DNA of 51,301 nucleotides from an uncultured Pseudomonadota bacterium (GCA_902793435.1 CADBDF010000007.1:1-51301), one strand, 5' to 3'; numbered from the stretch's first letter, positions 1,687 to 51,246 are shown. The notes: generated from the letters alone by a model not told the origin. A program made the numbers and translations.

Positions 1687-4420
<2,734 letters not shown>

Positions 4421-14009: not shown

Positions 14010-14042
14010 ATGGCAGAAATGTGCCGTTTTAGGAGAAACTGA
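14010..14042 (+). CDS. Possible 10-codon leader ORF
   Basis: ATG at 14010 opens a 10-residue reading frame (MAEMCRFRRN) whose TGA overlaps the ATG of the following gene as TGATG, and the AGGAG of the main gene lies inside it. The arrangement would allow translational coupling. It has no good ribosome-binding site of its own, so it may be chance. Confidence 0.25.
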   Translation: MAEMCRFRRN

Positions 14043-17529: not shown

Positions 17530-18351
17530 TCAATCTGCGTTTTCAATAATCTCGTACCAATGGGGTTGGCCGGCGTCGTCTTCGACCAGCAGGCATTTTT
17601 TACCGGCGGGGCAGTTTTCGTCCGGGCGGGTTTGTTTGGTTGTCTGTAAATCCGCAATCGCCGCGGTTTGATTGATTGTGTTTGTGACAACATCGCGTAT
17701 CGTCGCAATCGTGTCGTTTAATTCCGTTACCACAGGGCTAAACCGCGCACTGTTATACGCCGTCGTCGCAATTTTGATTTGATTTGCGCAATAAGTGGTT
17801 TCGTTCCAATTTTCTGTGGTTTCTGTTGCCAATGGATAATATACAGTCACTGGGTGCGAAGATAACCAAGATTTCCAAGTGGGAACATCTGTCGCAATAT
17901 CAACAATTGAAAAGTTTATCCTTTGTGATGAAACACCATAAAAAGAACCACCATAAGTTGTTGTAGATTGATTAGATGCAAAATGTGTGCTGATTCCATT
18001 TACACCAATTTGTCGGTTTGTTATTGTGTTATCTGAATAAACAGATGAGTTATTATTATTAGTATTCAATATCCACTCCTCCGTACCATTTAATACCTTG
18101 ACACCTACACGTCTTGTGATTTTACCGGTGGTGGCGTCGTATGAATCGGCATAGTCACCAACTTTGCGCAACACCATATTACCCTGGGTATAAAATGTTG
18201 GGGTGATTGGGTTTGCGGGTGTTGGCGTGCCGTTTTGCACGACGGTACCGGTTGCCGATGTATATGTTTGTTCGACTTGCCCCGACGGACACGCGGCAAA
18301 TACCGGCAATGTCAGTATCAATCCCAACAATGCGCATAATAACTTTCTCAT
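17530..18351 (-). CDS. Secreted tail-fibre-like protein with CPAGKKC module, copy 1
   Basis: A 273-residue protein from ATG 18351. The signal peptide is MRKLLCALLGLILTLPVFA, then ACPSGQ. The first half contains a phage-tail-like stretch (NGTPTPANPITPTF, about residue 40) and YYPLATETTENW. Residues about 190-273 form the module shared with the proteins at 44485 and 49960: TTAYNSARFSPVV, a helical INQTAAIADLQ stretch, RPDENCPAGKKCLLVE (Cys 247 and 253), and HWYEIIE at the end. It lacks the LamG-like N-terminal module of the other two. GGGGAG precedes the start; an in-frame ATG at 18384 lies in the leader terminator and was rejected. Expression is probably controlled by the structured leader at 18383-18520. 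Role inferred: surface adhesin or binding protein. Confidence 0.75.
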   Translation of the reverse strand: MRKLLCALLGLILTLPVFAACPSGQVEQTYTSATGTVVQNGTPTPANPITPTFYTQGNMVLRKVGDYADSYDATTGKITRRVGVKVLNGTEEWILNTNNNNSSVYSDNTITNRQIGVNGISTHFASNQSTTTYGGSFYGVSSQRINFSIVDIATDVPTWKSWLSSHPVTVYYPLATETTENWNETTYCANQIKIATTAYNSARFSPVVTELNDTIATIRDVVTNTINQTAAIADLQTTKQTRPDENCPAGKKCLLVEDDAGQPHWYEIIENAD

Positions 18352-25181: not shown

Positions 25182-26680
25182 GATATAATCCCCTTGTCTT
25201 TCATAGATTTAACTGCGGCATCAAACCATTTACGTGGCGCGCGCCATGCCTTGGCACCCAAATCGTATGTCCATTTACCAATATCGAATTTTTCACTTGT
25301 TGATAAATCTGTTTCTTCGGTATGTGCCAATGGAATTTTGACTTTGCCGTACGGTAATAGTTTATCGATTCTGGGCACCAACACGTAATAATATGCAAAT
25401 ATCAAACCGAACATCAGCAATAAAAATGTCCAACCGTCTTTCAAGAAATCAAATGCATCAGGATATACTTGTTCTATTTGTGCCTTTTGTTCCAAGAAGC
25501 ATGGTTTGAATAAATCTGCATCAACCAAACCATCGGCATCTTTGGATTCAGCCTCGCACTTTGCAAATGCGTTCATAACATATTGTGCCTGGGGTGTTGT
25601 TTTCCCTGTCATCTGCATTTCAAACATCGGGGGCAAAATTGAAGTATAATTATCGCCAGCGGGACCTGGAAACAAAGAATCTGCCGCATAATAGACAATC
25701 GAAAACAATATGGTGATTTTTAATGATATTGATATAATCGCCACCGCCGCTGAAACAACGGTCCCCAATGCTTTGCGAAACAGCCCTGATGCGATTTTCC
25801 ATACCTGTTCGTATGCCGCGGCGGCAATTAAAATAGGCAAAAATATAATTACAAAAACGACTTTGAATAATACAGAAAATATTTGAAAGAATAAATCAAA
25901 ACCGACAATCAAAAATGCGATAACTAATAACATTCCAGAAATCCATGTCATTATACCGCCACCTAAACCCAACCACGCATAATTCATCAAAGAAAAACCA
26001 CCTGCGGCACCTGCCAACATAACAGCATATAAATTTCCCAAAACACACATAAATGCACCTGATAATGCCGACATTGCACCAGACAATTGGGTTGCGCCCA
26101 AAATAACATTGCAATCGGTTGCCGATGTAACACCTGTTGCGGTCATAGATAAGATTGCACCAACATATAAAATAGGCGAAATTAAAATCTCGGAAACGAT
26201 TTTCAAAGATTCTGTGCCGCCGGCACTCAAAACGCCGATGGCGATACCTGCAATTAAAATACGCACACCCAATTTCCATACGGGGTCGAACCATTTTTTG
26301 AAATCCAAATCATTTGCAGATGTCGAATAACTGGCGTTCTTTTTTGATGCATCCCAGATAAATTTAATTGCGGATAAAAACATATAAATCGCAAAACCCG
26401 CCGCCATCAATATCCACAAATTATCAACAATCCCGGTCCAAAACATTTCGGACGCTTGACCTAATATATTTAATAATTCGACCAAATATCCACCTAAAAA
26501 CAAATGCCCCAGATTTGAAACATCGCCGTCTGCACCCACAGAATGCATAAAATTATCCAATGAAGTATATGTCAATGCGTCGCCACCAATTGTCGATGTT
26601 AAATACCAAATACCCAACCCCAGTGCGATTGCAACACCCAGTATTCGTAAAACTATCGAAATTATTTGCAACTTCTTCAT
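25178..26680 (-). CDS. VirB6/TrbL-like type IV secretion membrane protein (copy c)
   Basis: A 500-residue polytopic protein with an N-terminal hydrophobic segment (about 5-27) and eight or more membrane stretches. The conserved block KLGVRILIAGIAIGVLSAG...ILISPILYVGAILSM resembles those in the neighbouring copies. A Gly/Ala-rich region GGAGGFSLMNYAWLGLGGGIMTWI-like lies near 235-255 (two pieces, joined by AWLG). A periplasmic loop with two Cys (FAKCEAES, KPCFLEQ) precedes the last membrane segment. It starts 12 bases after the stop of copy b and overlaps copy d. The assignment rests on topology and block similarity. Confidence 0.7.
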   Translation of the reverse strand: MKKLQIISIVLRILGVAIALGLGIWYLTSTIGGDALTYTSLDNFMHSVGADGDVSNLGHLFLGGYLVELLNILGQASEMFWTGIVDNLWILMAAGFAIYMFLSAIKFIWDASKKNASYSTSANDLDFKKWFDPVWKLGVRILIAGIAIGVLSAGGTESLKIVSEILISPILYVGAILSMTATGVTSATDCNVILGATQLSGAMSALSGAFMCVLGNLYAVMLAGAAGGFSLMNYAWLGLGGGIMTWISGMLLVIAFLIVGFDLFFQIFSVLFKVVFVIIFLPILIAAAAYEQVWKIASGLFRKALGTVVSAAVAIISISLKITILFSIVYYAADSLFPGPAGDNYTSILPPMFEMQMTGKTTPQAQYVMNAFAKCEAESKDADGLVDADLFKPCFLEQKAQIEQVYPDAFDFLKDGWTFLLLMFGLIFAYYYVLVPRIDKLLPYGKVKIPLAHTEETDLSTSEKFDIGKWTYDLGAKAWRAPRKWFDAAVKSMKDKGIIS

Positions 26681-26692
26681 TGGTTTTCTTTT

Positions 26693-27901
26693 TTATTTCC
26701 TATTTTCTGCGATTATTTTAATCCTATTTTTTATATCTTTAAACATACTGTTCGTTGCGTTCATAATAGATTTGCTTAAATCTTTGCCAACTTTTGGATC
26801 TGTGGCTTTGACATCAAACATACCTAAGATGATATCAGTAATTTGTGGGATTTTACCATAAATAAATGTCAAAACATAAACCAAAACAACCACACTGGTC
26901 AGTGTAATATCATATTTTCCAGTGACCGTCAGGTCTGCGGAATAAATTTCACCGTTCATAATCGCCATCAACAGTGTATCAAAACTATTGGTTCCGTCAT
27001 TGGGATCTGTAAAGAATCGTGCAATAATAACTAAAATAACAGTATATGTAATTACCGCCGAGCCCAAAGTTATAATTGCACCTATTAAATTTTTTATTTG
27101 TTCAACACCAACGCCTTTGCCGAAATTTTTTATCCAACCTAACCAAGATGGGATATCTTTATCATTTATATCTTGGAATGCCGAAGCCATCAACGATATT
27201 GGAAAGAAAAATGCAAACATTGCCATCGCGATAATGACGTCTGCAAAATAACATAAAAAATTAAAGAACATTTTGAAAAACGCGAAGAACAAATATAATC
27301 CAACAAATGCCAATATTATGTGTTTTATAAATGCACCAATGCCGAAAAACATGTCCCATGAAAAAGCGGAATCCAACATGGCAACCCCCAGATTCATAAA
27401 ACCCTGGAATTGTGTGATTGTCACCTTGGCAATATCGATGATTGCAATACGCAAATCATCGCGGAAAAATCCATCTTTGACAGTTGTTTTCAAAGGTTGA
27501 TATGTCACATGTTCTTCAATTATATCAGGCGTAGATTTTAACATTGCGGTCGCATATGTTTGTGTCACATACGCTACTGGTTCAAAAGTAACAGTTGTCA
27601 CAAATCGTGGCAACATAACACCCATGCCTAAAAAAGCCATGGCAAATATAGAATTGATAAATACCGGTCGCATAGATTTGCTGAACCAACCGTCTTGGAA
27701 ACCGGTGGTAATATTTTTCCAAACAGCCCCAAAAACATACAAACTGAAAAAAGCCATAAAAACGACAGTACATATAAAAACAAATTTTGGATACGCGTTT
27801 GCGGCGGCGGCAGAAATAATTTGAAACATGCGGTCAAATATTGGGCAAGACCAACATTGCACAGTATTAGATATAAAGATATGTCCTAATTCTGTTATCA
27901 T
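26693..27901 (-). CDS. VirB6/TrbL-like type IV secretion membrane protein (copy b)
   Basis: A 402-residue polytopic protein. It begins without a signal peptide: TVQCWSCPIFDRMFQIISA (about residues 15-33) shares a CWSC motif with copy e (STCWSCQLFSDI). Then follow a membrane helix, the block RPVFINSIFAMAFLGMGVML-PRFVTTVTFEPVAYV, and further helices. The C-terminal tail is basic. Its ATG overlaps the TAA of copy a by one base, so the two are translationally coupled. Likely part of an inner-membrane translocation channel. Confidence 0.72.
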   Translation of the reverse strand: MITELGHIFISNTVQCWSCPIFDRMFQIISAAAANAYPKFVFICTVVFMAFFSLYVFGAVWKNITTGFQDGWFSKSMRPVFINSIFAMAFLGMGVMLPRFVTTVTFEPVAYVTQTYATAMLKSTPDIIEEHVTYQPLKTTVKDGFFRDDLRIAIIDIAKVTITQFQGFMNLGVAMLDSAFSWDMFFGIGAFIKHIILAFVGLYLFFAFFKMFFNFLCYFADVIIAMAMFAFFFPISLMASAFQDINDKDIPSWLGWIKNFGKGVGVEQIKNLIGAIITLGSAVITYTVILVIIARFFTDPNDGTNSFDTLLMAIMNGEIYSADLTVTGKYDITLTSVVVLVYVLTFIYGKIPQITDIILGMFDVKATDPKVGKDLSKSIMNATNSMFKDIKNRIKIIAENRK

Positions 27902-29169
27902 TATTTACCCCGAAATACCTTCCATAAATTTTTTGCGGTTTTTGCATTAGATTTTGTAATGTTCCAACCTGTTTTAACGTCTTTTTTAACTGTGTCGTAT
28001 AAATCCGTAGCGCCCTTGCCAACATAACTTTGTAATTTTTCGCGTGTTATTTCAAAAATTCTGTTCATCAAAAAGAAAGTCAGCAAACAAGATAACCACA
28101 GCACAGAATGTTCACCAAAACCACTGGAATTTGCACTCGCAGATGGAATGTTGGAATATGCGGTTCCACCGACCGCTGCAACGAATATTGTGCTGTTCCA
28201 TTGAAACAGTGCGCTGACCAACGCCAGATTAACGCACAAAATAAATGCACAGGCAATCATGGTGACAATCATTTTTTTCAATGCATCGATAATACCAGAA
28301 AACGCAGGCCATATATTAAACCAAGGGTCACTTGGTTTAACCACCCATGCGGCAACACTGAACGGATATAAAATTAAAGCAATTCCAAAATCAAAAATTG
28401 CCTGAATAATTAACAGAGCCATAAAAATATTACACGCGGTAAATGTCCCCACCAACAACAAACCGGTAATAATGTTCATAAAACTTTGTCCGCTGTTATG
28501 CAGCATTAATGATGTTGGCAATCCTTTGGAAATATATGCAAAACCGCGTTTTACAACGGCATTATTTGCCACCGATAACACATGGACGGGTTCAATTAAA
28601 TATTCACATGATTGTTTGCTCAGCCACCCTTGTTCTAACAAATTTTCTGGGCATTTTATTTCTTTACTGCTTTGTAAAGTCAAATTGCTGGACGTTTTTA
28701 ATATTTCTGTGGTGTAAAGCGACCCAAAATGCATAAACGGGTTTATTACGGCATTTGCCAAAAACTCTGGTTTCAACGGTAATAAAACCAACACAGCCAC
28801 CAATACGCGAATTCCAGGTTTTATTAAATCTTCGCCAATTTTTGTTGGTGTTGCGTTGTCGGCTGTCACCGATGGTGCCTTGAATCCAAATGTTTTTAAC
28901 CAGAATTTTGGAATGTATAATTTTATCAAATACGATGCGATATAAAACGCAACAAAACCCCAAATCAGTAAATATATAATTCCATCGCCATGACCAACGA
29001 AATATGCGTATGTTCCATTTGCAACAAACATAAAGGCGTCCAGAACAATTGGCACCAGTCCTGATATATCCAAAGAATCAATATTGATTATTGATGCGTT
29101 TGCAACACCCGGCACAAACGCACCCAAAAAACAAATAATTGCGGTAAAAAATTTTTTTATAAAATTCAT
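27901..29169 (-). CDS. VirB6/TrbL-like type IV secretion membrane protein (copy a)
   Basis: A 422-residue polytopic protein with a signal-like N-terminus (KKFFTAIICFLGAFVPGVANA). The conserved block DLIKPGIRVLVAVLVLLP...NPFMHFGSLYTTEIL is followed by an extracytoplasmic Cys pair (EIKCPENL, KQSCEYLIEPV), then several more membrane helices and a Lys-rich tail. It is the first gene of the minus-strand operon and is divergent from copy e with a 60-base gap. On the minus strand a TATAAT (about 29190-29195) lies 20 bases before the ATG. Confidence 0.72.
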   Translation of the reverse strand: MNFIKKFFTAIICFLGAFVPGVANASIINIDSLDISGLVPIVLDAFMFVANGTYAYFVGHGDGIIYLLIWGFVAFYIASYLIKLYIPKFWLKTFGFKAPSVTADNATPTKIGEDLIKPGIRVLVAVLVLLPLKPEFLANAVINPFMHFGSLYTTEILKTSSNLTLQSSKEIKCPENLLEQGWLSKQSCEYLIEPVHVLSVANNAVVKRGFAYISKGLPTSLMLHNSGQSFMNIITGLLLVGTFTACNIFMALLIIQAIFDFGIALILYPFSVAAWVVKPSDPWFNIWPAFSGIIDALKKMIVTMIACAFILCVNLALVSALFQWNSTIFVAAVGGTAYSNIPSASANSSGFGEHSVLWLSCLLTFFLMNRIFEITREKLQSYVGKGATDLYDTVKKDVKTGWNITKSNAKTAKNLWKVFRGK

Positions 29170-29216
29170 CTTTAATAATTGCTATCTAATTATATCATAT
29201 TTTGATAAATTTATGG

Positions 29217-29222
29217 TATAAT
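29217..29222 (+). promoter_or_regulatory. -10 box for the divergent VirB6-like gene (leaderless)
   Basis: TATAAT at 29217-29222 ends 7 bases before ATG 29230. No clear -35 box is seen at the usual distance. A minus-strand TATAAT for the four-gene operon lies in the same 60-base gap. Confidence 0.5.
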
Positions 29223-29229
29223 TAAAATC

Positions 29230-30567
29230 ATGAATTGGTTAAAAAAATTTTGGATAACATTTATATCGTTCTTGCCATTTTCCGCAGGTGCGGTTTCTCC
29301 GTTTTTTATTGGTGGGGCTGTTTTGGGTGCTGGTATAATTGGCTATTCTGTTTATCGCAGTGTTGCACCTGTGAATTTGGCGGACGCATTATCATTTTTT
29401 TCGACATGTTGGTCATGTCAATTATTTTCGGATATTGTTGCAACAATGTCACATATTTTACCGGTTGCATACAAAGCATTGGGAAAAATAATTATTCCAT
29501 TTTCTATTGCATTAACTGCGGTTTGGTTCGCGTGGCAATTAATTGAGATATACACTGGTGCCAAATCTAAAAGCGATATTGCATCCGCCCCTGCGGTTGC
29601 AGATGGTTGGAATATTGGGGCAAAATTTGGTATGCACACAATAAGGTTATTATTTGTTGCGGCATTATTGGCGGTACCATTACCACGTTTAATTTCATCT
29701 GTGATTGTGGAACCGATATTTGATATAGGATTGTCAATGAATTATACGATGTCTGCGGTTGATTCGCGTGCAAATTATGCGAATTGTATAGTTGCCACCG
29801 CGATTGCCGACAGACAAAGTATTTATGCAGATGCAAATACAGGTGGCATAAACGCATTTGCGCCAAAATTCCGTCATAATTTGACATGCCAAATTGCAAA
29901 TGTTCATCAAATGACTGGGTTGGGTATGACTGTTGGTTGGACCATGTTAAACATGGCGTTTAATTCACAGTATATGCATAAAATATTGTGGGGTGTGCCA
30001 ATCTTTCCAAATGTTCCGCTATTTTTAACAGGTTTGTTGATAACTTTACTATTTTTTGCGGCATTGTTGCCGATACCATTATATTTCTTGGAAATATTTA
30101 TGAAATTGGCGATGGATTTTCTGTTGTTGCCACTGACCTTGCTGGAATGGTTGTTCAAAGATTGGAAAGTAATAAAAATGGGTGACAGAAATATTCAAAA
30201 AACCATAGATGATGTTATATCTGGGGCACTAGGATTAGCGATGACAGGAATATTTATAACATTTGCAATTATGGTGTTAAACGCGGTGTTTTCTGGATGG
30301 ACCGGTGCAGATGTTATTAAAACAGCAATTGCCCAAAACGATTCGCAATATTTAATAGATAATTTATTGCAAACATCTGGGAATACCGCATTGGTGACGA
30401 TTATTTTGATGGGTGTATTTATGACAATGTTTATGGTAATGATACCGGCATTGATAAAGTCTTTATTTAATATTGAAATATCGGATAAATACTATCAAAC
30501 CGCGAAAAAAGACACCAAAATTTTGTGGGACGACATAAAAAAAATATGGAATTTCGCAAAAAAATAA
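29230..30567 (+). CDS. VirB6/TrbL-like type IV secretion membrane protein (copy e, divergent)
   Basis: A 445-residue polytopic protein with signal-like start MNWLKKFWITFISFLPFSAG. The CWSC motif (STCWSCQLFSDIVATM, about 57-72) is shared with copy b. The block HTIRLLFVAALLAVPLPRLI...VEPIFDIGLSM and a Cys pair (NYANCIVAT, LTCQIANVHQ) match the pattern of the other copies. The tail is Lys-rich. The gene is transcribed away from the four-gene operon. No virB4, virD4 or other T4SS gene is present within the window, so the rest of the apparatus must be elsewhere if it exists. Confidence 0.72.
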   Translation: MNWLKKFWITFISFLPFSAGAVSPFFIGGAVLGAGIIGYSVYRSVAPVNLADALSFFSTCWSCQLFSDIVATMSHILPVAYKALGKIIIPFSIALTAVWFAWQLIEIYTGAKSKSDIASAPAVADGWNIGAKFGMHTIRLLFVAALLAVPLPRLISSVIVEPIFDIGLSMNYTMSAVDSRANYANCIVATAIADRQSIYADANTGGINAFAPKFRHNLTCQIANVHQMTGLGMTVGWTMLNMAFNSQYMHKILWGVPIFPNVPLFLTGLLITLLFFAALLPIPLYFLEIFMKLAMDFLLLPLTLLEWLFKDWKVIKMGDRNIQKTIDDVISGALGLAMTGIFITFAIMVLNAVFSGWTGADVIKTAIAQNDSQYLIDNLLQTSGNTALVTIILMGVFMTMFMVMIPALIKSLFNIEISDKYYQTAKKDTKILWDDIKKIWNFAKK

Positions 30568-34715: not shown

Positions 34716-35474
34716 ATGCCACGGTATAAAGTTGAACTTGAATATGATGGAACAAATTTAATCGGTTGGCAAGAAAACCTGGACGGGCCATCTGTGCAAT
34801 CAATTATGATGGACGCAATTGAAAAATTATCAACCGAACGTCCAACGGTATTTGGCGCGGGTCGCACAGATGCCGGTGTTCATGCGGTTGCGATGACGGC
34901 ACATTTTGATTTGACCAAAGATTATGATGCGGATACGGTTATGCGTGCATTAAATTTTTATTTGGCAAACCAACCTGTATCGGTATTGAATTGTGAAATT
35001 GTTGATGAAAATTTCAGTGCGCGTTTTTCGTGCATTAAACGTCATTATAAATACGTGATTTTAAATCGTCCTGCATCACCAGTATTGGAAAAAAATCGCG
35101 TTTGGTGGATTCCACAAAAATTGGACATTGATGCAATGCGTGTGGCGGCAAAAAAATTATTGGGCAAACATGATTTTACATCTTTGCGTGCCACGAATTG
35201 CCAGGCCAAAAGCCCAATAAAAACATTAGACCAATTGGATATAACGATTGATGATGATAAAATTATTTTTGAATTATCGGCGCGTTCATTTTTGCATCAC
35301 ATGGTGCGCAACATTGTTGGCACTTTGGTTGAAATAGGATTGGGCAAACCATACGATATTGATGAAATTTTAAATGCTAAAAACCGCAGTGCTGCGGGTC
35401 CAACCGCACCGGCATCTGGGCTGTATTTTATTCGTGCGGATTATCCCACCAACGACCAGATGGCGTATATTTAA
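34716..35474 (+). CDS. truA: tRNA pseudouridine(38-40) synthase TruA
   Basis: A 252-residue protein, full length. It converts uridines 38-40 of the tRNA anticodon stem to pseudouridine. YKVELEYDGTNLIGWQ (4-19) is the family start and FGAGRTDAGVHA (about 47-58) holds the catalytic Asp. SFLHHMVRNIVGTLVEIG is the conserved C-terminal motif. Last gene of the rmuC-def-fmt run. Its last 47 bases overlap the convergent comEC gene. Confidence 0.96.
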   Translation: MPRYKVELEYDGTNLIGWQENLDGPSVQSIMMDAIEKLSTERPTVFGAGRTDAGVHAVAMTAHFDLTKDYDADTVMRALNFYLANQPVSVLNCEIVDENFSARFSCIKRHYKYVILNRPASPVLEKNRVWWIPQKLDIDAMRVAAKKLLGKHDFTSLRATNCQAKSPIKTLDQLDITIDDDKIIFELSARSFLHHMVRNIVGTLVEIGLGKPYDIDEILNAKNRSAAGPTAPASGLYFIRADYPTNDQMAYI

Positions 35475-37401
35475 TATGTCCTGATGGATAAATAACAAAT
35501 CCACCATGCAAAATTTTGTTATTACATGCATGTGAATATATATCAAAATAAGACACAATAAAATCTATATTATTATCCATGCACAGAGTCATAAAATGCT
35601 TTTGCAAAGGTTTAAATTTTTGAATATATGCAATCGTGAAATTTTGTGATTTATAGATGCAAACACCATCTGGACATTTACGCCTGGTATTTTTATCGCT
35701 ATGTGGTTCGCCGTTTAATTCGCGGAAAGAATCAAATGCAAAATAATGGTTTGATGCGCGTGCTTTGTTAAAATCTAATTTATTGTCATATACCATGCCA
35801 ATTAATTCATGGTCTGGGGTGATATAAAATATCGGTCTTGATTGTGTTGCGACAATTAAAATTCCAAACCCAACAAATATTCCAAATAAAATATAATTTG
35901 CATATCGAAATAACCAAACAGAAGAATTTTTAATTGGCTTTATCAAAATCAAAAATACAAACCCCAACACGAATAAAGAAAACGCTAAATTACTAATGTG
36001 TGGTATATTTATATTTGATACAGGCAAATCTGTAATATTTTGTGCAATGTGCAAAGTCCATAAATAAACACTGTGCGCGATGTTTAATAATAAATGCGAC
36101 CCCATACATGCAAATATAGTCCCCAAAATAACCAATGGCATAATAACAAAAGAAAATATTGGTAATAAAACCAAATTACCGATTAAACTGTATGTTGGAA
36201 TTGAATTAAAATGTGTTGCAATAAAAGGCATTGTAAATATGGTTGCAATAATAGCTGTTGTGGCAGCTACATAAATATAAGACTTAAATTTTTGAAAAAT
36301 ATTTTTATTTGAATTATCAAATTTTTCGTCATTAAAAAACCAAATCAACCCAAATATAGCGGCAAAAGATAATTGAAAGCCACTCTGCATAACAAAGTGC
36401 GGATTTGCAAAAAATAAAATCAAAAAAGCAATGGATATATTGCGCATTGAAATTGCATCGCGTCCCAATAACAGAGCCAAAAATACACCAGATGTCATTA
36501 AAAATGCGCGCATTGTTGCAACGGACAAACCCGAAATACAAACATACAAAAATAAAACAGTCCATGCACAGACGCACGCAACAATTCGCGCCGGCACACG
36601 ACGAGTTATAAAACCAATACTGCGACAAATTAAATAAAATAATGCAAATAACCACCCGCCAATCAAAGTCATATGAAATCCGCTGATTGACCAAATATGA
36701 CCAACACCGGCGGTGGTCCAAATTTGTTTGTCATTTTCCGGTACAGAATTTTTATATCCCAATACCAAGCCATCTGTCAGGAAAGAGTTTGATTTATTAT
36801 GGATTGCACTACGCAAACCATTGATAGAAAAATTATCGTCATGATTTAAAATATTATAATCTATGATAAATCCAGTTGCCGTCAATCCGTTAAAATATGC
36901 CCATCGTGCATAGTTAAATGTTTCTGGGGCCTCTGCATGTGCTGGCGGAAACAAAGAAACTTTTGCACGCAACACATCACCAACATCTGGGATGGGTTTA
37001 TCCCCTGTAATAGTTAATTTAATATTTGTGGGGTGTTTGGTGTTTAATTCATCGCCATTGATGCGTAAAACTAATCTTCGTTTGCTGTCGGCAATATCTA
37101 TATCTGTGACAGTTGCGATAATATCAACTTCGCGTAAATCGTGTTTTAATACAGGGGTTTGCACAAACACCTGTGTATAAACGGCAGCATATAAAAATCC
37201 AAACACAAATAATACCGCACCGCGTATCAAAAAATTCATTTTGCCAAAAAGTAAAATAATGGCACATGATATAAACGCAATAACGGGGTGTGAAATATTC
37301 GGCTCGGTCGGCATAGAAAAATAACATGCCGCCGCAAAAGCCAATATAATTGGCAGCCATAAAAATTTATCACTAAATTGTTTTGTTAAAAAATCACGCA
37401 T
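35428..37401 (-). CDS. comEC: ComEC/Rec2-family DNA uptake channel protein
   Basis: A 657-residue polytopic protein of the competence family that passes single-stranded DNA across the inner membrane during natural transformation. The N-terminal membrane segments lead into a DUF4131-like OB region (DIIATVTDIDIADSKRRLVL, about 90-110), then the Competence domain with GVGHIWSISGFHMTLIGG (about 230-247) and many helices. The C-terminal metallo-beta-lactamase-like domain seen in Bacillus ComEC is absent; the end (about 520-657) is a short soluble region, as in many alphaproteobacterial members. It overlaps truA by 47 bases. The promoter is leaderless. Confidence 0.9.
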   Translation of the reverse strand: MRDFLTKQFSDKFLWLPIILAFAAACYFSMPTEPNISHPVIAFISCAIILLFGKMNFLIRGAVLFVFGFLYAAVYTQVFVQTPVLKHDLREVDIIATVTDIDIADSKRRLVLRINGDELNTKHPTNIKLTITGDKPIPDVGDVLRAKVSLFPPAHAEAPETFNYARWAYFNGLTATGFIIDYNILNHDDNFSINGLRSAIHNKSNSFLTDGLVLGYKNSVPENDKQIWTTAGVGHIWSISGFHMTLIGGWLFALFYLICRSIGFITRRVPARIVACVCAWTVLFLYVCISGLSVATMRAFLMTSGVFLALLLGRDAISMRNISIAFLILFFANPHFVMQSGFQLSFAAIFGLIWFFNDEKFDNSNKNIFQKFKSYIYVAATTAIIATIFTMPFIATHFNSIPTYSLIGNLVLLPIFSFVIMPLVILGTIFACMGSHLLLNIAHSVYLWTLHIAQNITDLPVSNINIPHISNLAFSLFVLGFVFLILIKPIKNSSVWLFRYANYILFGIFVGFGILIVATQSRPIFYITPDHELIGMVYDNKLDFNKARASNHYFAFDSFRELNGEPHSDKNTRRKCPDGVCIYKSQNFTIAYIQKFKPLQKHFMTLCMDNNIDFIVSYFDIYSHACNNKILHGGFVIYPSGHIKYTPSGRWWDNPHE

Positions 37402-44239: not shown

Positions 44240-44284
44240 ATGCAATAAAAGTATTTAATTTTACTGTGTTTTTGTTGATTGAAA

Positions 44285-44316
44285 CGGTCGAAAAAAACCT
44301 AGGTTTTTTTAGACCG
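44285..44316. promoter_or_regulatory. 32-base palindrome centred on CCTAGG (operator candidate)
   Basis: The arms CGGTC-G-AAAAAAACCT and AGGTTTTTTT-A-GACCG match in 15 of 16 positions. The core AAACCTAGGTTT recurs in the promoter 90 bases downstream (44403-44414). The lack of a loop and the flanking T tract on both strands make an operator more likely than a simple terminator, although a terminator role cannot be excluded. Confidence 0.55.
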
Positions 44317-44394
44317 CTTTTGGGAATTTTGTGATTTTTTATAACATATTGATTTTACGACAAAAGTAAATTTTCATTTTTTTGAAAAAAGTTG

Positions 44395-44424
44395 TTGCTT
44401 TTAAACCTAGGTTTTTTGTATATT
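44395..44424 (+). promoter_or_regulatory. Promoter of the 614-residue secreted protein with CCTAGG operator in spacer
   Basis: TTGCTT (44395-44400), 18-base spacer, TATATT (44419-44424), about 60 bases before ATG 44485. The spacer holds the perfect palindrome AAACCTAGGTTT (44403-44414), the same core as the larger palindrome at 44285-44316. The downstream leader (from about 44431) is almost identical to that of the gene at 49960-51246. Confidence 0.6.
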
Positions 44425-44430
44425 CATTAT

Positions 44431-44484
44431 ATAGCGAAAAACCGCGGATTTCCGCCAGTTTATAAAGTCGAGAGAGTTGCGAAA
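44431..44484 (+). repeat. Conserved 5' leader shared by two secreted paralogs
   Basis: From TATAG at 44431 to the ATG, the sequence is the same as the leader of the minus-strand gene (51247-51301) except for two bases near its outer end. It includes a hairpin GCGGATTTCCGC and ends in GAGAGAGTTGCGAAA before ATG, the GAGAGAG serving as Shine-Dalgarno. Confidence 0.75.
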
Positions 44485-46329
44485 ATGTCTGCAAAACGTG
44501 CATTTTTTGGTATTTTTCAAAAATTAGTGGTGGTTTGCTGTGCCATATTTTTTGGATTTGCCAACGCATTTTCCGCAAATTTACCCGCCGGTTATACAGA
44601 GTTGGAGTATATAGAATCCACCGGCACACAATGGATTGATACGGGGATAAGCTTTGCTTATTCTGACGTTTTACGTATAGTTGCCGATATGCAATATACA
44701 GATTTACCAAGTGGCGCTTCACAATATTTTGGAATATATGGCGGTGCTTATTTCGGTGTTACTAATTCGTCTTGGAGTGTTGGTGGAAATGCACAAGGCA
44801 CAGCAAATACCACAAGGCATGTTTTTGATTTTAGCACTACGATAGGCACAAACCAAGTGCAGACGCTGAAAGTTGACAATGTATCTTATGCGAATACAAG
44901 AAACAATCAAAATGGTAGAGTTGGTGTTTTAAATACTGTCTCTGGGACTTATTTTAACCATGCAAAGTTGTACAGTGTTAAAATTTATAAAAACAGTTCG
45001 TTAACCTTTGATGGTATTCCAGCCAAATACGGTAATGTTGTCGGTATGTATGATACGGTTAATAATGTGTTTTATACAAATCAGGGTACTGGAACATTTA
45101 CTGCCGGACCCGCCAAGTGCAGGAATTTGTTTGATAAAAACAACACAAACACTGCCGATGGATATATAGCAAACGCTTATTTAAATTCCAATGGTGTCGA
45201 GGTTTCAAGCAACAGTTATGCCATCAGTGTATATATTCCAGTAGAGGGGGATACTAAGTATTACTATTCTATAAATGGTACAGATGGTCAGGTGGCTACA
45301 GGTCATTCCGCACCACGTGTTGCATATTATGATGCCAATAAAGTGTATATATCAAGCTCTAACGGGCTTTCAGGTGGCGCTTCATTCCAAACACCAGTGA
45401 GTTGCAAATATATTAGGGTGCCAATTTATAAAGAGGCATTGGAACATGGCATTCAACTGGAACAAGGTACCACCGCAACCGATTATGTTCCGTTTTGTGC
45501 ATCGGAAATAAAAATTGCCACAACTGCATACAATACGGCGCGGTTTAGTCCAGTCGTAAATGATTTAAACAGCACGGTGGCGACCATACGCGATATCGTG
45601 ACGAATACTATCAATCAAACCGCCGCAATAGCCAGTTTGCAAGCGGACAAGCAGACCCGCCCGGACGAAAACTGCCCCGCTGGCAAAAAATGTTTATTGG
45701 TCGAAACCGAGGAAAACGGTGTCATTGTTCCACACTGGTACGAAATTATAGAAAATATTTATGGTCTGCCTGCTGGATACACCGCGTTGGAATATATACA
45801 AAGTGACGGCGCAAGTTATCTTATTGTGCCATATCGCGTGAATAACAAAACTGTGTTTTATTGCAGATATAATGAACTTCAAAATACGTTGAGTGCCGCA
45901 ATTATATTTGGTGTCACAGATGCCCCAAATGTATCAAAGGCAAATAACGGTATTTTAAGATTAACCGGCATAAATCGTATGGGTTGGGGTGATTCCACAT
46001 CGGGTTCTATAATCGATGTCAGCGCACCAAAAGCGTTTAACACATGGTATGAGGTTTTGTATGACCAAAATAAATTATATCAAGATAATGTATTATATGC
46101 GACTTCTGCAACACAACCCAGCACCAGTTGGACCGCGAATTATGATTTGGGTATTTTTGCAAGAAATGGTCCTTCTGTGACATTTCCATCAAAAGCAAAA
46201 ATATCAAGTGTTTGGGCAAAAGAAAATGGTGAATATAAAATCAATCTTGTGCCGGCAAAGCGCAACAGCGATAATGTAATCGGTATGTATGATGGTACTG
46301 GGACATTTACCGCCGGCCCAGAGATTTAA
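44485..46329 (+). CDS. Secreted LamG/tail-fibre-like protein, 1.5-unit copy
   Basis: A 614-residue protein from ATG 44485. The signal peptide (1-31) has a long n-region and ends ANAFSA. Residues 32 to about 205 are a LamG/concanavalin-like module starting LPAGYTELEYIESTGTQWID and ending GTGTFTAGP. Then comes a phage-tail-like binding module (AKCRNLFDKNNT to IQLEQGTTATDYVPF). The shared module follows (343-425: TTAYNTARFSPVV, coiled-coil-like INQTAAIASLQ, CPAGKKC at 397-403, VPHWYEIIEN). From about 427 a second LamG module (LPAGYTALEYIQSDG) begins and stops at GTGTFTAGPEI, exactly where other copies would go on to AKCRNLF. The protein is one full unit plus a partial one. The longer frame back to 44392 runs through the promoter. 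Surface binding role inferred. Confidence 0.78.
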   Translation: MSAKRAFFGIFQKLVVVCCAIFFGFANAFSANLPAGYTELEYIESTGTQWIDTGISFAYSDVLRIVADMQYTDLPSGASQYFGIYGGAYFGVTNSSWSVGGNAQGTANTTRHVFDFSTTIGTNQVQTLKVDNVSYANTRNNQNGRVGVLNTVSGTYFNHAKLYSVKIYKNSSLTFDGIPAKYGNVVGMYDTVNNVFYTNQGTGTFTAGPAKCRNLFDKNNTNTADGYIANAYLNSNGVEVSSNSYAISVYIPVEGDTKYYYSINGTDGQVATGHSAPRVAYYDANKVYISSSNGLSGGASFQTPVSCKYIRVPIYKEALEHGIQLEQGTTATDYVPFCASEIKIATTAYNTARFSPVVNDLNSTVATIRDIVTNTINQTAAIASLQADKQTRPDENCPAGKKCLLVETEENGVIVPHWYEIIENIYGLPAGYTALEYIQSDGASYLIVPYRVNNKTVFYCRYNELQNTLSAAIIFGVTDAPNVSKANNGILRLTGINRMGWGDSTSGSIIDVSAPKAFNTWYEVLYDQNKLYQDNVLYATSATQPSTSWTANYDLGIFARNGPSVTFPSKAKISSVWAKENGEYKINLVPAKRNSDNVIGMYDGTGTFTAGPEI

Positions 46330-46336
46330 TCTTACC

Positions 46337-46363
46337 CACCCACAGAAATGTGGGTGTTTTTTA
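46337..46363 (+). terminator. Intrinsic terminator
   Basis: Stem CACCCACA (46337-46344) / TGTGGGTG (46349-46356), GAAA loop, six T. Confidence 0.93.
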
Positions 46364-46421
46364 TTTGATTTTAATGTTGTGGATTGCTATATTTTTTACA
46401 CAACGCAAAGGATTTTTTAAC

Positions 46422-46928
46422 ATGAAAAAAATTATCAAATATTTATCAATTATTTTTGGCGTTTTCTTGCTGGATTTAACCACTAAATCTGTGTTGTTAT
46501 ATTTGATTACTGGTAATGTTCCTGTATCGGGCTATGCGTGGAATATTGTAAAATATCCGTATATTATGGCGCATGTGACGAATTGGTTTAATATTGTTTT
46601 TACATGGAATCCGGGAACTTCATTTTCTTTGTTTCGGCATTTGGGCGAAATATCGCCTTGGATTATTGTTGGGGCAACTGGGGTAATAATTGCGTTGCTG
46701 GTTTATTATTTATTGCGTCGCGCCGGTGCAAATGAAAAATTACCTTTGTGTTTTATCATTGGTGGCGCGTTGGGAAATTTAATCGACAGAATTCGTTTCG
46801 GCGCGGTAATTGATTTTATCGATTGGCATATTGGCGATATGCATTGGCCTGCGTTCAATGTGGCGGATATGTTTATTGTAATTGGTGTTGGTTTGTATAT
46901 AATCAATTTGATTTTTCGCAAAAAGTAA
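46422..46928 (+). CDS. lspA: Lipoprotein signal peptidase (signal peptidase II)
   Basis: A 168-residue inner-membrane aspartyl protease that cleaves prolipoprotein signal peptides before the lipidated Cys. Four membrane helices are apparent. Motifs: FLLDLTTKSVL (helix 1), TWNPGTSFSLF (NxGxxFS-type), and the catalytic Asp pair in GNLIDRIRFGAVIDFIDW and WPAFNVADMFIVIG. AAGGA lies 9 bases before ATG 46422; the in-frame start at 46350 overlaps the upstream terminator. It is followed after 12 bases by yidC. A likely substrate (the lipoprotein at 49586-49801) lies 3 kb away. Confidence 0.95.
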   Translation: MKKIIKYLSIIFGVFLLDLTTKSVLLYLITGNVPVSGYAWNIVKYPYIMAHVTNWFNIVFTWNPGTSFSLFRHLGEISPWIIVGATGVIIALLVYYLLRRAGANEKLPLCFIIGGALGNLIDRIRFGAVIDFIDWHIGDMHWPAFNVADMFIVIGVGLYIINLIFRKK

Positions 46929-46940
46929 AAGGAAAAAATA

Positions 46941-48515
46941 ATGGTTCAATATTTGGATAATAATGCAAATTCTGGATTCGCGGCTTGGGCGGCGGCACAG
47001 CAAAAAAATCAACCATCTTCATCGCGGTTTGGACGGATTTTATGGTGGGTATTTTTGTTCTTGGTGGCTTGGTGGATTGTTGGTTTGTTTATGGGTGATG
47101 CACCAAAACAAAATGTTGCGGTAAATCCTGAACCGACGGTCAGTATTGATATATCAAATGTTCCAACACAAACAATTGAATCCAATGATATAAACGCACG
47201 CGTCCAAGGATTGCGTATATCAAACATAGATTTAAAAAACTATGCGCGTGATGCACGTGATGCAGAACCTGTCAAATTGATTGATGGTGATGGATTCGTC
47301 GAAATTGGTGTAATGCCAAATGGAACAACGGCACCGACCGCAACGACTGTTTGGAAAAAATCCGGTGATAATATGGTTTGGCGCAATAATGACGGTGTGG
47401 AATTTACGCGTAATATTACGGCGGACGGTTTTATGATTCGTGTATCAGATACAATTAAAAATAATTCCAAACGCGATTTTTCATTCGCGCCATACGCGCG
47501 TGTTTTGCGTGCCGCTGACAAAAACAGTTCTGCCGGTGTTTATACTGGGGCGATTGCGTATGTAAATAATGATATTGAACATAATGATTGGCGTAGTTTG
47601 GATAAAAAATCTTATGCATACACAACGACAAATGGATTTGTCGGTTTTGTTGATCAATATTGGGAATCTGTGGCACAAATCGACAGTCCCGACCAAACAA
47701 TCCGCATGAAAAAGCAGGGCGATTTATACGATGCTTCGACCGCGGCGGCGCCAGTGGTTGTTGCGGCGGGGACCACAAAAACAATTACAACAAATGTTTT
47801 TGCCGGCCCACGTGATGCCCATATTTTAAGTGGTGCAGAATCCACAATCAATGGCATAGTTGAATCTGTGGATTATGGTTGGTTTTGGTTCTTGGCACAA
47901 CCAATGTTATGGTCAATAAACGCGATACATAAATTTGTTATGAATTATGGTTTGGCGATAATTATATTTACGATTTTAATTCGTATTTTAATGTGGCCTT
48001 TGACCCGTAAATCATACGCGTCAATGTTGGCGATGCAGAAAATGCAACCTGAATTACAAAGAATTCAAAAATTATACGCGAACGATAAACAACGTATGCA
48101 AATGGAAATGATGCGTGTGTATCAAACACATAAAACATCACCGATGTCTGGGTGTTTGCCGATGTTGATTCAAATTCCAATATTTTTTGCATTGTATAAA
48201 GCATTATTGATTTCGGTTCAAATGCGCAATGCACACTTTTTATGGATACAAGATTTGGCGACAATGGACCCATATTTTATATTACCGATATTAATGGGTG
48301 GGACAATGTGGCTGCAACAATATTTACAATCGAATAAAAATGATAGTGCAAATCAAAATGACATAATGGCACAGACCGCCAAGACTATGAAATGGATGCC
48401 TGTGTTATTTACGATAATGTTTGCATGGATGCCGGCTGGATTGGTTTTATATTGGACTGTATCGAATATATTTGGTATTGGTCAAATGATGTGGTTAAAA
48501 CACAAAACAAAATAA
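46941..48515 (+). CDS. yidC: Membrane protein insertase YidC
   Basis: A 524-residue protein. After a short cytoplasmic start the first helix is LWWVFLFLVAWWIVGLFMG (about 31-49). A large periplasmic beta-domain follows (about 60-330). The conserved five-helix core includes FVMNYGLAIIIFTILIRILMW, KMQPELQRIQKLYANDK, KTSPMSGCLPMLIQIPIFFAL, and the last helix VLYWTVSNIFGIGQ. It inserts and folds membrane proteins with or without SecYEG. Here it lies between lspA and lpxD, rather than in the common rpmH-rnpA-yidC cluster. Confidence 0.96.
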   Translation: MVQYLDNNANSGFAAWAAAQQKNQPSSSRFGRILWWVFLFLVAWWIVGLFMGDAPKQNVAVNPEPTVSIDISNVPTQTIESNDINARVQGLRISNIDLKNYARDARDAEPVKLIDGDGFVEIGVMPNGTTAPTATTVWKKSGDNMVWRNNDGVEFTRNITADGFMIRVSDTIKNNSKRDFSFAPYARVLRAADKNSSAGVYTGAIAYVNNDIEHNDWRSLDKKSYAYTTTNGFVGFVDQYWESVAQIDSPDQTIRMKKQGDLYDASTAAAPVVVAAGTTKTITTNVFAGPRDAHILSGAESTINGIVESVDYGWFWFLAQPMLWSINAIHKFVMNYGLAIIIFTILIRILMWPLTRKSYASMLAMQKMQPELQRIQKLYANDKQRMQMEMMRVYQTHKTSPMSGCLPMLIQIPIFFALYKALLISVQMRNAHFLWIQDLATMDPYFILPILMGGTMWLQQYLQSNKNDSANQNDIMAQTAKTMKWMPVLFTIMFAWMPAGLVLYWTVSNIFGIGQMMWLKHKTK

Positions 48516-48527
48516 AGGATTTATACA

Positions 48528-49574
48528 ATGTGGAAAATATTTGCGACTTTGTTTGGCCCACGTGGCACGAAAATAACTGCGGGCGAATTGGCTGAAATGT
48601 TTGGGTTGGAATTGCGCGGTGACAAAGACGCGGTTGTGCGTGGTGTTGCACCAATCGCAGATGCGCGTCCAGGACAACTGGCATTTTATTCGACCGAACA
48701 AAACAGTACAGCATTTAAAATTCTGCCAATTGATGTTTTGCGTAAAACGCGTGCAACGGTGATTTTGTTGCAACCTGCACAAATCCCAGATGCACCAAAT
48801 GGTGCGACTTTGTTGGTGACGGATTCTCCGCGTGGAAACATTGTAAAAATATTAGGTGAAATTTATCGGGAAAAACCGCGCTTTGGAATCAATGCGGACG
48901 CACATGTTGAACGCGGTGTGTTTTTTCGTGCGCGCAAGACAAATTATGTTGGGCAATTTGCGACAGTTGAACGTGGCGCGGTAATTGAACCAAATGTAAA
49001 AATTTATCCTGGGGCATATATTGGTCGTAATGTGACATTGGGACGTGGCACAGTTGTATATAGTGGCGCACATATTGAAAATGCAACGATTGGCGCAGAT
49101 TGTGTTATAAATTCAAATGCGGTAATCGGTAAAAATGGATTTGGATATACGCGTCAAAATGGCAAAAATGTATTTATTCCACATGTTGGTCGTGTTGTTC
49201 TGGGCGACAGGGTTTCTGTGGGTGCAAATACATGTATCGATCGCGGTGCAATGACAGACACCATTGTTGGGACAGGAACCAAAATTGATAATCTGTGTCA
49301 AATTGCACATGGTGTTGTTGTGGGTAAAGAATGCTTTTTGGCATCTGGTGTTGGCCTGGCTGGCGGAACCGTTATTGGCGACAGGGTTTTATTGGGTGGC
49401 CAGGTTGGTGTCGCAAATGGTATTCATATTGGCGATAATACCGAGGTCGGTGCAAAAAGTGGCGTGTTAAGAAATATTCCTGCAAATACCAAGGCAATGG
49501 GATATCCGGCGGGTGTTGGTATGGAATTTTTCCGTCATTATGCGTGGATAAGAAAACATGTAAATGATGATTAA
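48528..49574 (+). CDS. lpxD: UDP-3-O-acylglucosamine N-acyltransferase
   Basis: A 348-residue protein of the lipid A pathway that adds the second hydroxyacyl chain to the glucosamine. An N-terminal uridine-binding domain (about 1-110: ITAGELAEMFGLELRG, GVAPIADARPGQLAFYS) leads to a left-handed beta-helix of hexapeptide repeats (about 120-320, e.g. VIEPNVKIYPGAYIGRNV). The catalytic His is probably that of IAHGVVVG (about 262). AAAGG precedes the start. It indicates a lipid A-containing outer membrane. Co-directional with lspA-yidC, 12 bases after yidC. Confidence 0.96.
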   Translation: MWKIFATLFGPRGTKITAGELAEMFGLELRGDKDAVVRGVAPIADARPGQLAFYSTEQNSTAFKILPIDVLRKTRATVILLQPAQIPDAPNGATLLVTDSPRGNIVKILGEIYREKPRFGINADAHVERGVFFRARKTNYVGQFATVERGAVIEPNVKIYPGAYIGRNVTLGRGTVVYSGAHIENATIGADCVINSNAVIGKNGFGYTRQNGKNVFIPHVGRVVLGDRVSVGANTCIDRGAMTDTIVGTGTKIDNLCQIAHGVVVGKECFLASGVGLAGGTVIGDRVLLGGQVGVANGIHIGDNTEVGAKSGVLRNIPANTKAMGYPAGVGMEFFRHYAWIRKHVNDD

Positions 49575-49585
49575 AAATATTATTT

Positions 49586-49801
49586 TTAATACAACAAATC
49601 ACCGGTATTTGCCGGTGTTTTTTTAACATTTTTGATATCATAAACCATCCAATCCCATGGAACCAATAACTTGAATTCGGTTTGACTGTCATAAATCGGG
49701 TCACCGGTAATATCTGGTTCGCGTGCATTAGTTGCGATGTTGGAAACCTTGCCGCAACCAGTTAAAACAAAAAAACATGTTAAAAAAGCAAATATTTTCA
49801 T
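49586..49801 (-). CDS. Small lipoprotein
   Basis: A 71-residue protein from ATG 49801. Signal peptide MKIFAFLTCFFVLTGC with lipobox LTGC, so Cys 16 should be lipidated after cleavage by LspA. The mature part (GKVSNIATNAREPDITGDP, then FKLLVPWDWMVYDIKN) has no recognised domain. The in-frame start at 49837 lies over the promoter. The promoter TTGAAA-17-TATAAT ends 7 bases before the ATG (leaderless). Its last codons encode, on the opposite strand, the lpxD terminator hairpin. Confidence 0.75.
   Translation of the reverse strand: MKIFAFLTCFFVLTGCGKVSNIATNAREPDITGDPIYDSQTEFKLLVPWDWMVYDIKNVKKTPANTGDLLY
49600..49624 (+). terminator. Intrinsic terminator after lpxD
   Basis: Stem CACCGG (49600-49605) / CCGGTG (49612-49617) plus seven T. 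It lies inside the 3' coding end of the convergent lipoprotein gene, and its hairpin repeats that at 8544. Confidence 0.87.
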
Positions 49802-49808
49802 AATAAAA

Positions 49809-49837
49809 ATTATACCATATTTTAGGTGTTGTTTCAA
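49809..49837 (-). promoter_or_regulatory. Promoter of the small lipoprotein gene (leaderless)
   Basis: On the minus strand: TTGAAA (49832-49837), 17-base spacer, TATAAT (49809-49814), then 7 bases to the ATG ending at 49801. Confidence 0.8.
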
Positions 49838-49873
49838 TATGGTTAAAATTCCTGAAACAATTACATTTTGAAC

Positions 49874-49898
49874 AAAAAAAAACGCCTGATGGCGTTTT
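49874..49898 (-). terminator. Terminator of the 428-residue secreted protein gene
   Basis: Stem AACGCC/GGCGTT with a long T run on the minus strand, about 65 bases after the stop codon. Confidence 0.87.
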
Positions 49899-49900
49899 AA

Positions 49901-49954
49901 CCCCCGCCACCACCCGCCACTTTTGGCGACGGGTGGTCCCCCGCCCCTATGGGG
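49901..49954. repeat. REP-like palindromic repeat, copy 3
   Basis: On the minus strand: GGGGGACC, then a hairpin CACCCGTCGCC-AAAA-GTGGCGGGTG, then GTGGCGGGGGTTAA. The frame GGGGGACC-hairpin-GGTGG-GGGGGT-AA is the same as in the repeat at 13258-13313. It lies between the stop codon of the secreted protein gene and its terminator. Confidence 0.55.
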
Positions 49955-49959
49955 TGGAA

Positions 49960-51246
49960 TTATTCTTCGGGCGCTTCAATAATTTCATACCAATGCGGGA
50001 CAATAACGCCGTTTTCTTCGGTTTCGACCAATAAACATTTTTTACCGGCGGGGCATTGTTCGTCTGGGCGGGTTTGTTTGGTTGCCTGTAAATCTGCAAT
50101 CGCCGCGGTTTGATTTATCGTTTTTGTGACAACATCGCGAATAGTTGCAATCGTGGTATTCAAATCATTTACAACCGGATTAAACTGTGCAGTATTATAT
50201 GCAGTTGTTGCGATTTTGATTGCGTTTGAACAAAACGGCACATAGGCTGTTGCGGTTGAACCTTGTTCTATCTGCACATCAGGCGCAGTACCAACCGTCA
50301 GGTTATTAGCAATATAGAAGTTGATGTATTTTGCATTAGATGGTGTAGTAATAGTTGTTGCGCCTGTTGTAATTGAACTTATAAAGTTTTTATTTGCATC
50401 ATAAAACAACCATCTCATACCCGATGAAAGTGAATAATCAGGACACGACACAGTATAATTTGTTGATGGTTTAACTTGTATCATATTGGCATTACAAATA
50501 CGGTTACTATTAGGTGCATAATTACCTCTTGTTGTACTATAAAGACCTTGTTGCCATTGACCATCAAACAAATTCCGGCACTTGGCGGGTCCGGCGGTAA
50601 ATGCACCTGTGCCACCATTGGTTAAGAATTTGTCCGAAACCAAATCATACATACCCAACACATTATCTGAATTTCTACGACAAGGAACTAGGTTTTGCGC
50701 CAAAACACCGTTAGTCCATTTCTTATATCCAAATATTTTCAACGCACCAAAATAATCACTGCCCGTTGCGTGAATTGCGAATAATGTTGCTGTTTTCGGT
50801 GTTGTAATGCTAACATTGCCTTGTGTAGCAATTGTCGTGCCGTCTATCTTAAAAATACCACCATTATGTTCTATTTGTAGTGTATGTTTATTGGTGTCTG
50901 CATCTATATCAAGTGTTGGAGTGCTGTTTCCCCACCCAACCCTATACTTTAGCGTCGAAGATATTGCAAAAGTATAAACGTTACTGCTCGTATAATTACG
51001 TGCGCCAAAAAGACTATTCCCATCAGGTTTTTCTATCGCTTGGAAAATCAGTTCTATGTCATCTGTTGCGGTGTTTAAAGTATACCCCGTATCAATATAC
51101 TGTGTTCCGGTGGATTCGATATATTCTAATTCTGTATATCCGGCGGGTAAATTTGCGGAAAATGCGTTGGAAAATACAAAAAACATGGCACAGCAAAATA
51201 CAGCTAATTTTTGAAAAATACCAAAAAATGCACGTTTTGCAGACAT
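49960..51246 (-). CDS. Secreted LamG/tail-fibre-like protein, single-unit copy
   Basis: A 428-residue protein. The signal peptide (MSAKRAFFGIFQKL to ANAFSA, 1-31) is nearly identical to that of the gene at 44485. A LamG-like module (LPAGYTELEYIESTGTQYID to GTGAFTAGP) is followed by a tail-fibre-like module (AKCRNLFDGQW to VQIEQGSTATAYVPF). The shared C-terminal module ends the protein: TTAYNTAQFNPVV, INQTAAIADLQ, CPAGKKC (398-404), VPHWYEIIEAPEE. The central parts of the two copies differ, while the ends are conserved. The conserved leader runs to the window edge, so the promoter lies outside. GAGAGAG is the Shine-Dalgarno. Likely exported and surface-exposed; ligand unknown. Confidence 0.78.
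   Translation of the reverse strand: MSAKRAFFGIFQKLAVFCCAMFFVFSNAFSANLPAGYTELEYIESTGTQYIDTGYTLNTATDDIELIFQAIEKPDGNSLFGARNYTSSNVYTFAISSTLKYRVGWGNSTPTLDIDADTNKHTLQIEHNGGIFKIDGTTIATQGNVSITTPKTATLFAIHATGSDYFGALKIFGYKKWTNGVLAQNLVPCRRNSDNVLGMYDLVSDKFLTNGGTGAFTAGPAKCRNLFDGQWQQGLYSTTRGNYAPNSNRICNANMIQVKPSTNYTVSCPDYSLSSGMRWLFYDANKNFISSITTGATTITTPSNAKYINFYIANNLTVGTAPDVQIEQGSTATAYVPFCSNAIKIATTAYNTAQFNPVVNDLNTTIATIRDVVTKTINQTAAIADLQATKQTRPDEQCPAGKKCLLVETEENGVIVPHWYEIIEAPEE

Follow-up and report, generated by a model that had tools for sequence, protein, structure and literature searches.

Here we describe a family of modular proteins from bacteria of the genus Candidatus Enterousia, in which the signal sequence, the chromosomal place and one shared module are kept while the variable modules are replaced. 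Three members, called A, B and C, are encoded in the window analysed here, a stretch of 51,301 nucleotides from an uncultured Pseudomonadota bacterium (GCA_902793435.1 CADBDF010000007.1:1-51301), and they belong to a lineage-specific, dispersed family of one Enterousia clade. The best-supported explanation, which we regard as probable while well short of certain, is that these proteins act as adhesins and are displayed as oligomers, with homologous exchange renewing their binding heads from a wide pool.

The original prediction, made from the sequence of the window, held that three proteins with signal peptides share a common end module, and all three are real. Each opens with a signal-peptide-like sequence (MRKLLCALLGLILTLPVFAA in A, MSAKRAFFGIFQKLVVVCCAIFFGFANAFSA in B and MSAKRAFFGIFQKLAVFCCAMFFVFSNAFSA in C; judged by eye), and with the last 90 amino acids of C as query, the matches to B (86% identity, E 6e-48) and to A (81%, E 3e-40) lie far beyond chance. 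Protein B (44485..46329, plus strand, 614 amino acids) consists of a signal sequence (44485..44577) that hardly differs from those of C and other type-1 members, a first LamG module with a variable centre (44581..45111), a CBM-like module (45118..45495) ending in IQLEQGTTATDYVPF, the shared module, hereafter the C-module (45502..45756), and behind it a second LamG module (45766..46320). Protein C (49960..51246, minus strand, 428 amino acids) carries a signal peptide, a LamG module (50587..51150), a CBM-like module (50233..50580) recognised both by profile and in a structural model, and the C-module (49972..50226). In protein A (17530..18351, minus strand, 273 amino acids), an open reading frame with a signal-peptide-like start, a variable tail-type module with the motif NGTPTPANPI (17797..18261) precedes the C-module (17539..17784). 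The modules were located by profile matches, that of the C-module in C agreeing with the helix and hairpin of the model; the plus strand holds no open frame at the A and C loci, hence both genes are on the minus strand. The shared module had been called C-terminal, which is true of A and C and untrue of B, where the second LamG comes after it. Similarly, the expected LamG plus tail-like part in two proteins and a different tail-like part in the third needs amending to the order LamG, CBM-like, C-module in B and C, with the additional LamG in B, and tail-type followed by C-module in A.

With the same 90-residue query, about 25 C-module copies are found in the genome to which the window belongs (G000; 898 kb in 15 contigs), three of them in the window, and 27 matches in the sister species G028; several of the G000 matches lie at contig ends, where repeats break the assembly, so a few of the 25 are halves of one gene. 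In a profile census the C-module was found in 11 of 156 Enterousia species, scattered, at 2 to 35 copies each, and for genomes covered by both approaches the single-sequence search gave a concordant result. Profile A1, used in profile searches only, has ten rows, one of which mistakenly joins the sequences of two members. The proposed family is thereby confirmed and enlarged. The metagenome-assembled genomes of the genus come from rumen and horse gut, and Enterousia belongs to the order Rs-D84, with reduced genomes and a life that is probably partner-dependent (PMC12306168). Some members are split by a frameshift or stop (G000 C3:17213-18972 and C5:90568-92438; G028 C2:121056-122619), which makes some alleles either pseudogenes or errors of assembly.

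Fixed loci with replaced middles

When G000 is compared with G028, the loci are seen to be fixed and the middles replaced. For nearly every G000 member the flanking DNA aligns to the flanks of a G028 member at 82-98% nucleotide identity, on both sides at about eleven loci and on one side at about a dozen more. Between these allelic partners, the region preceding the C-module shows 26-49% identity where the alignments are longer and otherwise aligns in short pieces or not at all, and no G000 variable module exceeds 51% identity anywhere among the G028 members. Control open reading frames from the same stretches behave differently: 111 of 181 were matched over most of their length, at a median identity of 96.4%, with a 5th percentile of 82% and one below 60%. 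In keeping with the original prediction, then, the centres are not ordinary orthologues with uniform divergence. The exceptions to replacement are a member with a retroelement (o1938/o4130) and a cysteine-rich member (o2248/o6247). A third allele of one locus is found on the contig L160, which has a different middle within G028-like DNA, 98% identical to G028 downstream and 94% upstream and in the signal sequence. Mobile-element insertion was rejected as a candidate: at the single empty site that was inspected (G000 C5:3600-3613 against G028 C2:117134-118491), the two genomes differ by a complete transcription unit, and terminal repeats or an obvious target duplication were not seen by eye.

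The constant ends behave as recombination arms. On the left, the leader and the signal sequence are strongly conserved as DNA among type-1 members; the leader of B lies at 44265..44484 on the plus strand, as seen in an alignment of 13 leaders. On the right, C-modules of allelic pairs are more alike than those of non-allelic pairs in the middle third (0.865 versus 0.756, p 0.002) and in the 3' third (0.801 versus 0.728, p 0.0007), with no gain in the 5' third (0.756 versus 0.756), and in many pairs the 150 nucleotides downstream of the C-module track the locus as well. Since the likeness of allelic pairs resumes only halfway through the C-module, the right-hand junction commonly falls inside it. 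In G028, about 10 kb are inverted between the positions of the members o309 and o530, only one of the two junctions carrying a member, and this inversion between the places of two members supports recombination through the constant ends. Short blocks of the C-module are DNA-identical between members despite an agreement of just 38-65% at fourfold sites within the G000 genome, a figure which means that the arms have not been freshly homogenised along their whole length and on which recent whole-length gene conversion was rejected as the sole cause of the constant ends.

Two further features of the ends were observed. Across all G000 and G028 members, the synonymous sites of the C-module range from nearly frozen to saturated within 83 codons, one nearly frozen block, AGT TTG CAA GCG GAC AAG CAG ACC CGC CCG, being common to both species. 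The leader contains the perfect palindrome AAACCTAGGTTT, with two copies in the window where none is expected (44295-44306 and 44403-44414), the second directly abutting TTTTTTGTATA. Thirty sites of this palindrome occur in the genome, against one in a reversed control; they lie upstream of type-1 members and are mostly paired at a spacing of 108-109 bp, and the pair may possibly be a shared operator.

Many dispersed copies with constant ends could also point to antigenic variation within the genome, in which one expressed copy, or a small number of them, would receive middles from silent copies through gene conversion. A known example is msp2/p44 of Anaplasma, outer-membrane protein families with in-genome donors, few expression sites and membrane barrels. 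The Enterousia family resembles it in that a small alphaproteobacterial genome holds numerous scattered copies, in its conserved ends around a hypervariable middle and in its recombination through these ends. The DNA-identical blocks among C-modules and the recombination between members also speak for such variation. However, in-genome donor copies of the msp2/p44 kind were not found: only one pair of LamG centres is alike within G000 (77%), no G000 module survives in the sister genome, most members look complete, being full length with a leader and signal sequence of their own. The proteins are also chains of lectin modules and not membrane barrels. We consider such variation an improbable explanation. 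Less credible again is vertical descent with very fast evolution, whereby the middles diverged in place through point mutation under positive selection. The loci are indeed common to both species and some allelic pairs have the same module type at 37-49% identity, but partners are often unlike in the number and type of their modules while their neighbours are 96% identical, and some modules have their nearest relatives in other species or in viral contigs.

Architecture and predicted structure

Profiles resolve three variable modules, LamG-like, CBM-like and tail-type, which stand in differing combinations ahead of the C-module, and in the profiles of family members a second LamG is often placed after it. 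The CBM-like module ends in LEQGSTATxYVPF, and the tail-type module carries NGTPTP...ITRRVGVKV...YPLATETTE. Every module, taken on its own, has conserved ends and a divergent centre. The C-module, about 83 amino acids long, is constant and is predicted to form one long helix and a beta-hairpin. Pfam has no family above cut-off for A, B or C, so that LamG membership is here an assignment by fold. An AlphaFold2 model of C as a monomer (mean predicted local distance difference test score, pLDDT, 75.7, and about 65-83 in the helix and hairpin part) shows, after a signal helix, a jelly roll (approximately residues 37-222), another beta sandwich (approximately 231-328) and, in the C-module, a helix at 348-389 and a hairpin formed by strands 404-411 and 414-421. 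The jelly roll matches the LamG of PAPP-A with Z up to 14.7 (169 residues, 2.9 Å), also resembles laminin G and pentraxins (Z 12-15 overall), and matches phage proteins in BFVD at E 2e-16. Foldseek gave weak whole-chain matches only against the PDB, and a search of the PDB by sequence with profiles A1 and A3 gave no match at E up to 10. A second model, of A with relatives, is of low confidence (mean pLDDT 63.5).

The model agrees with the earlier reading of the constant end as coiled-coil-like, in that it gives a coiled-coil-like helix followed by the hairpin. Judging from the long helix, the C-module probably oligomerises, likely as a trimer. In T4 fibritin with its foldon and in trimeric autotransporter adhesins, a long helix and a small beta cap lie below a binding head, and by analogy the helix and hairpin of the C-module would resemble a display stalk of this type; unlike those trimeric fibres, the family is without a sequence match in the PDB and without a membrane anchor barrel.

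Phage relatives, a capsid cluster and a retroelement

Viral contigs often carry LamG modules (153 confirmed, 80 kept), and some of the 80 contigs kept, which include rumen virus contigs, also have CBM-like and tail-type modules, as in the family. The LamG or concanavalin A-like modules of gut phage tails have the same fold and the same conserved module ends. Family modules are 65-67% identical to viral ones and 70-83% identical to those of other Enterousia species. The C-module, by contrast, is absent from the viral LamG proteins that were read, and those shown start without a signal peptide; among the 80 contigs the C-module occurs in L160 alone, whose position is the same chromosomal locus as that of a bacterial member. 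Against 50,697 phage records, neither A nor C nor the C-module gave a match at E 1e-5, and B is 33% identical to a streptococcal phage tail fibre over 21% of its length, in the CBM-like module. The idea that these secreted, modular proteins form a family that lies outside prophages and uses tail-type modules is therefore supported, and its modules are shared with rumen virus contigs. That the modules are domesticated parts of tail fibres is plausible, although transfer may have run either way.

L160 also leads to a podovirus-type structural cluster with capsid (PF19821), portal (PF12236), tail tubular-like, terminase-like and lysis-like genes. The cluster is compact and lies around dnaB (G000 contig C5, about 3.7-16 kb; L176: 760-13063). 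Its capsid gene is present, nearly always as a single copy, in 105 of 115 Enterousia genomes, it is syntenic in all five genomes compared, and for the genomes that carry it the nearest relatives by PcrA are also the nearest by capsid protein. Such a fixed, single-copy, syntenic cluster follows a domesticated, gene-transfer-agent-like pattern, and it is a candidate gene transfer agent. The first podovirus-like gene transfer agent of this type to be reported is FpGTA of Faecalibacterium (PMC12946183), where a gut bacterium has likewise retained podovirus-like structural genes; the Enterousia cluster, for which packaging of host DNA would be hypothetical, is proposed as no more than a possible vehicle. 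Nothing was found in the literature that links gene transfer agents with variable surface lectins.

Family members adjoin this cluster in G000, G028 and G015, and the sole viral contig with a C-module is such a locus. These facts, along with the tail-type modules, would suit the view that the family supplies the genus-wide, phage-like cluster with receptor-binding or tail components and does not belong to the cell surface. But the proteins have signal peptides, more than 20 copies are located elsewhere, and the range of the cluster (105 of 115 genomes) differs from that of the C-module (11 of 156); we give this view a little less credence than in-place divergence. The original prediction had named a C-module confined to prophages beside tail genes as the finding that would speak against it, and the distribution over 11 of 156 genomes, with its single viral contig at a bacterial locus, is a different one. 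That the members are ordinary tail genes of decayed phages, as the resemblance of B to a tail fibre might suggest, was already disfavoured and is hardly credible, given single genes scattered among housekeeping genes (in the window rpmA, lspA, yidC and lpxD), signal peptides, loci fixed across species and a C-module missing from the 50,697 phage records at E 1e-5.

A second source of diversity acts on some members. The G000 contig C9 (1-4078; L061) carries a complete diversity-generating retroelement beside a C-module member, comprising a reverse transcriptase (3044-4075, PF00078), an Avd-like protein (2244-2624, PF05635 and weakly PF22296), a template repeat (1577-1710) and a variable repeat (602-735) at the end of the member. 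All 11 differences between the two repeats fall on template adenines (25 adenines in 134 positions; p 1e-9), as in known retroelements of this class; in contrast to these, only a subset of members is affected here. Related variable repeats stand at the end of two more members in G000, of one in G028 and of several in other species, and relatives of the reverse transcriptase are present in 42 of 156 Enterousia genomes. None of A, B and C has a variable repeat, and their middles are different domains and not adenine-mutated copies of a template, so the retroelement was ruled out as the origin of their LamG and CBM-like variation.

Proposed mechanism and meaning for the host

In the explanation that we favour, A, B and C would be secreted, lectin-like binding proteins, each with a signal peptide and one to three swappable binding modules like those of phage tail proteins. 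A constant stalk of long helix and beta-hairpin would oligomerise, likely as a trimer, and display these modules, after which a further module may come. The loci are fixed, and the middle would be exchanged as a cassette by homologous recombination, with the leader and signal sequence as the homology arm on one side and the C-module and downstream DNA on the other. The cassettes would be drawn from a large pool in other Enterousia, their modules occurring in phages too, and would probably enter the cell by natural transformation or capsid-mediated transfer. The window itself encodes a ComEC-type DNA-uptake channel (35428..37401, minus strand; Pfam Competence PF03772, E 1e-51), which is not a part of the family and which, going by its sequence, is a candidate for the entry route; with DprA encoded elsewhere in the G000 genome, natural transformation is possible. 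Selection on the family may come from partner cells, from predators, from phages or from the animal host.

Several points weigh against this explanation. The proteins have neither a known anchor nor a recognised way through the outer membrane, the structure is a monomer model of moderate confidence, a few members are broken, the fourfold sites of the C-module agree poorly within the G000 genome, and the comparison covers only metagenome-assembled genomes, species representatives instead of strains. A bolder version, which we think rather unlikely, would see a repertoire with two engines on a common stalk, lectin cassettes taken from phage tails being swapped at about 25 fixed loci by means of DNA brought in by the host's own phage-derived particles while a retroelement hypermutates an end domain in part of the members.

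Other genes of the window were noted in passing. Large secreted, cysteine-containing paralogs of 764 and 752 amino acids lie on either side of A (14042-16336 and 18836-21094) and have no Pfam match. Four adjacent multi-membrane secreted or inner-membrane proteins (23907-30567) resemble VirB6/TrbL paralogs, and Pfam gave no match for either of the two tested.

A genome of about 0.9 Mb thus keeps some 25 loci for proteins whose binding parts are turned over completely between sister species, and such turnover in a reduced genome points to strong, changing selection on recognition. On one stalk, diversity arises in two independent ways, by cassette exchange and through the retroelement, and the family connects modules of phage tails with bacterial adhesins and with a candidate particle for gene transfer. 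For a host that is thought to depend on partners (PMC12306168), the family offers a handle on which partner or enemy is involved, and it makes the question of variable surfaces in symbionts with reduced genomes directly testable.

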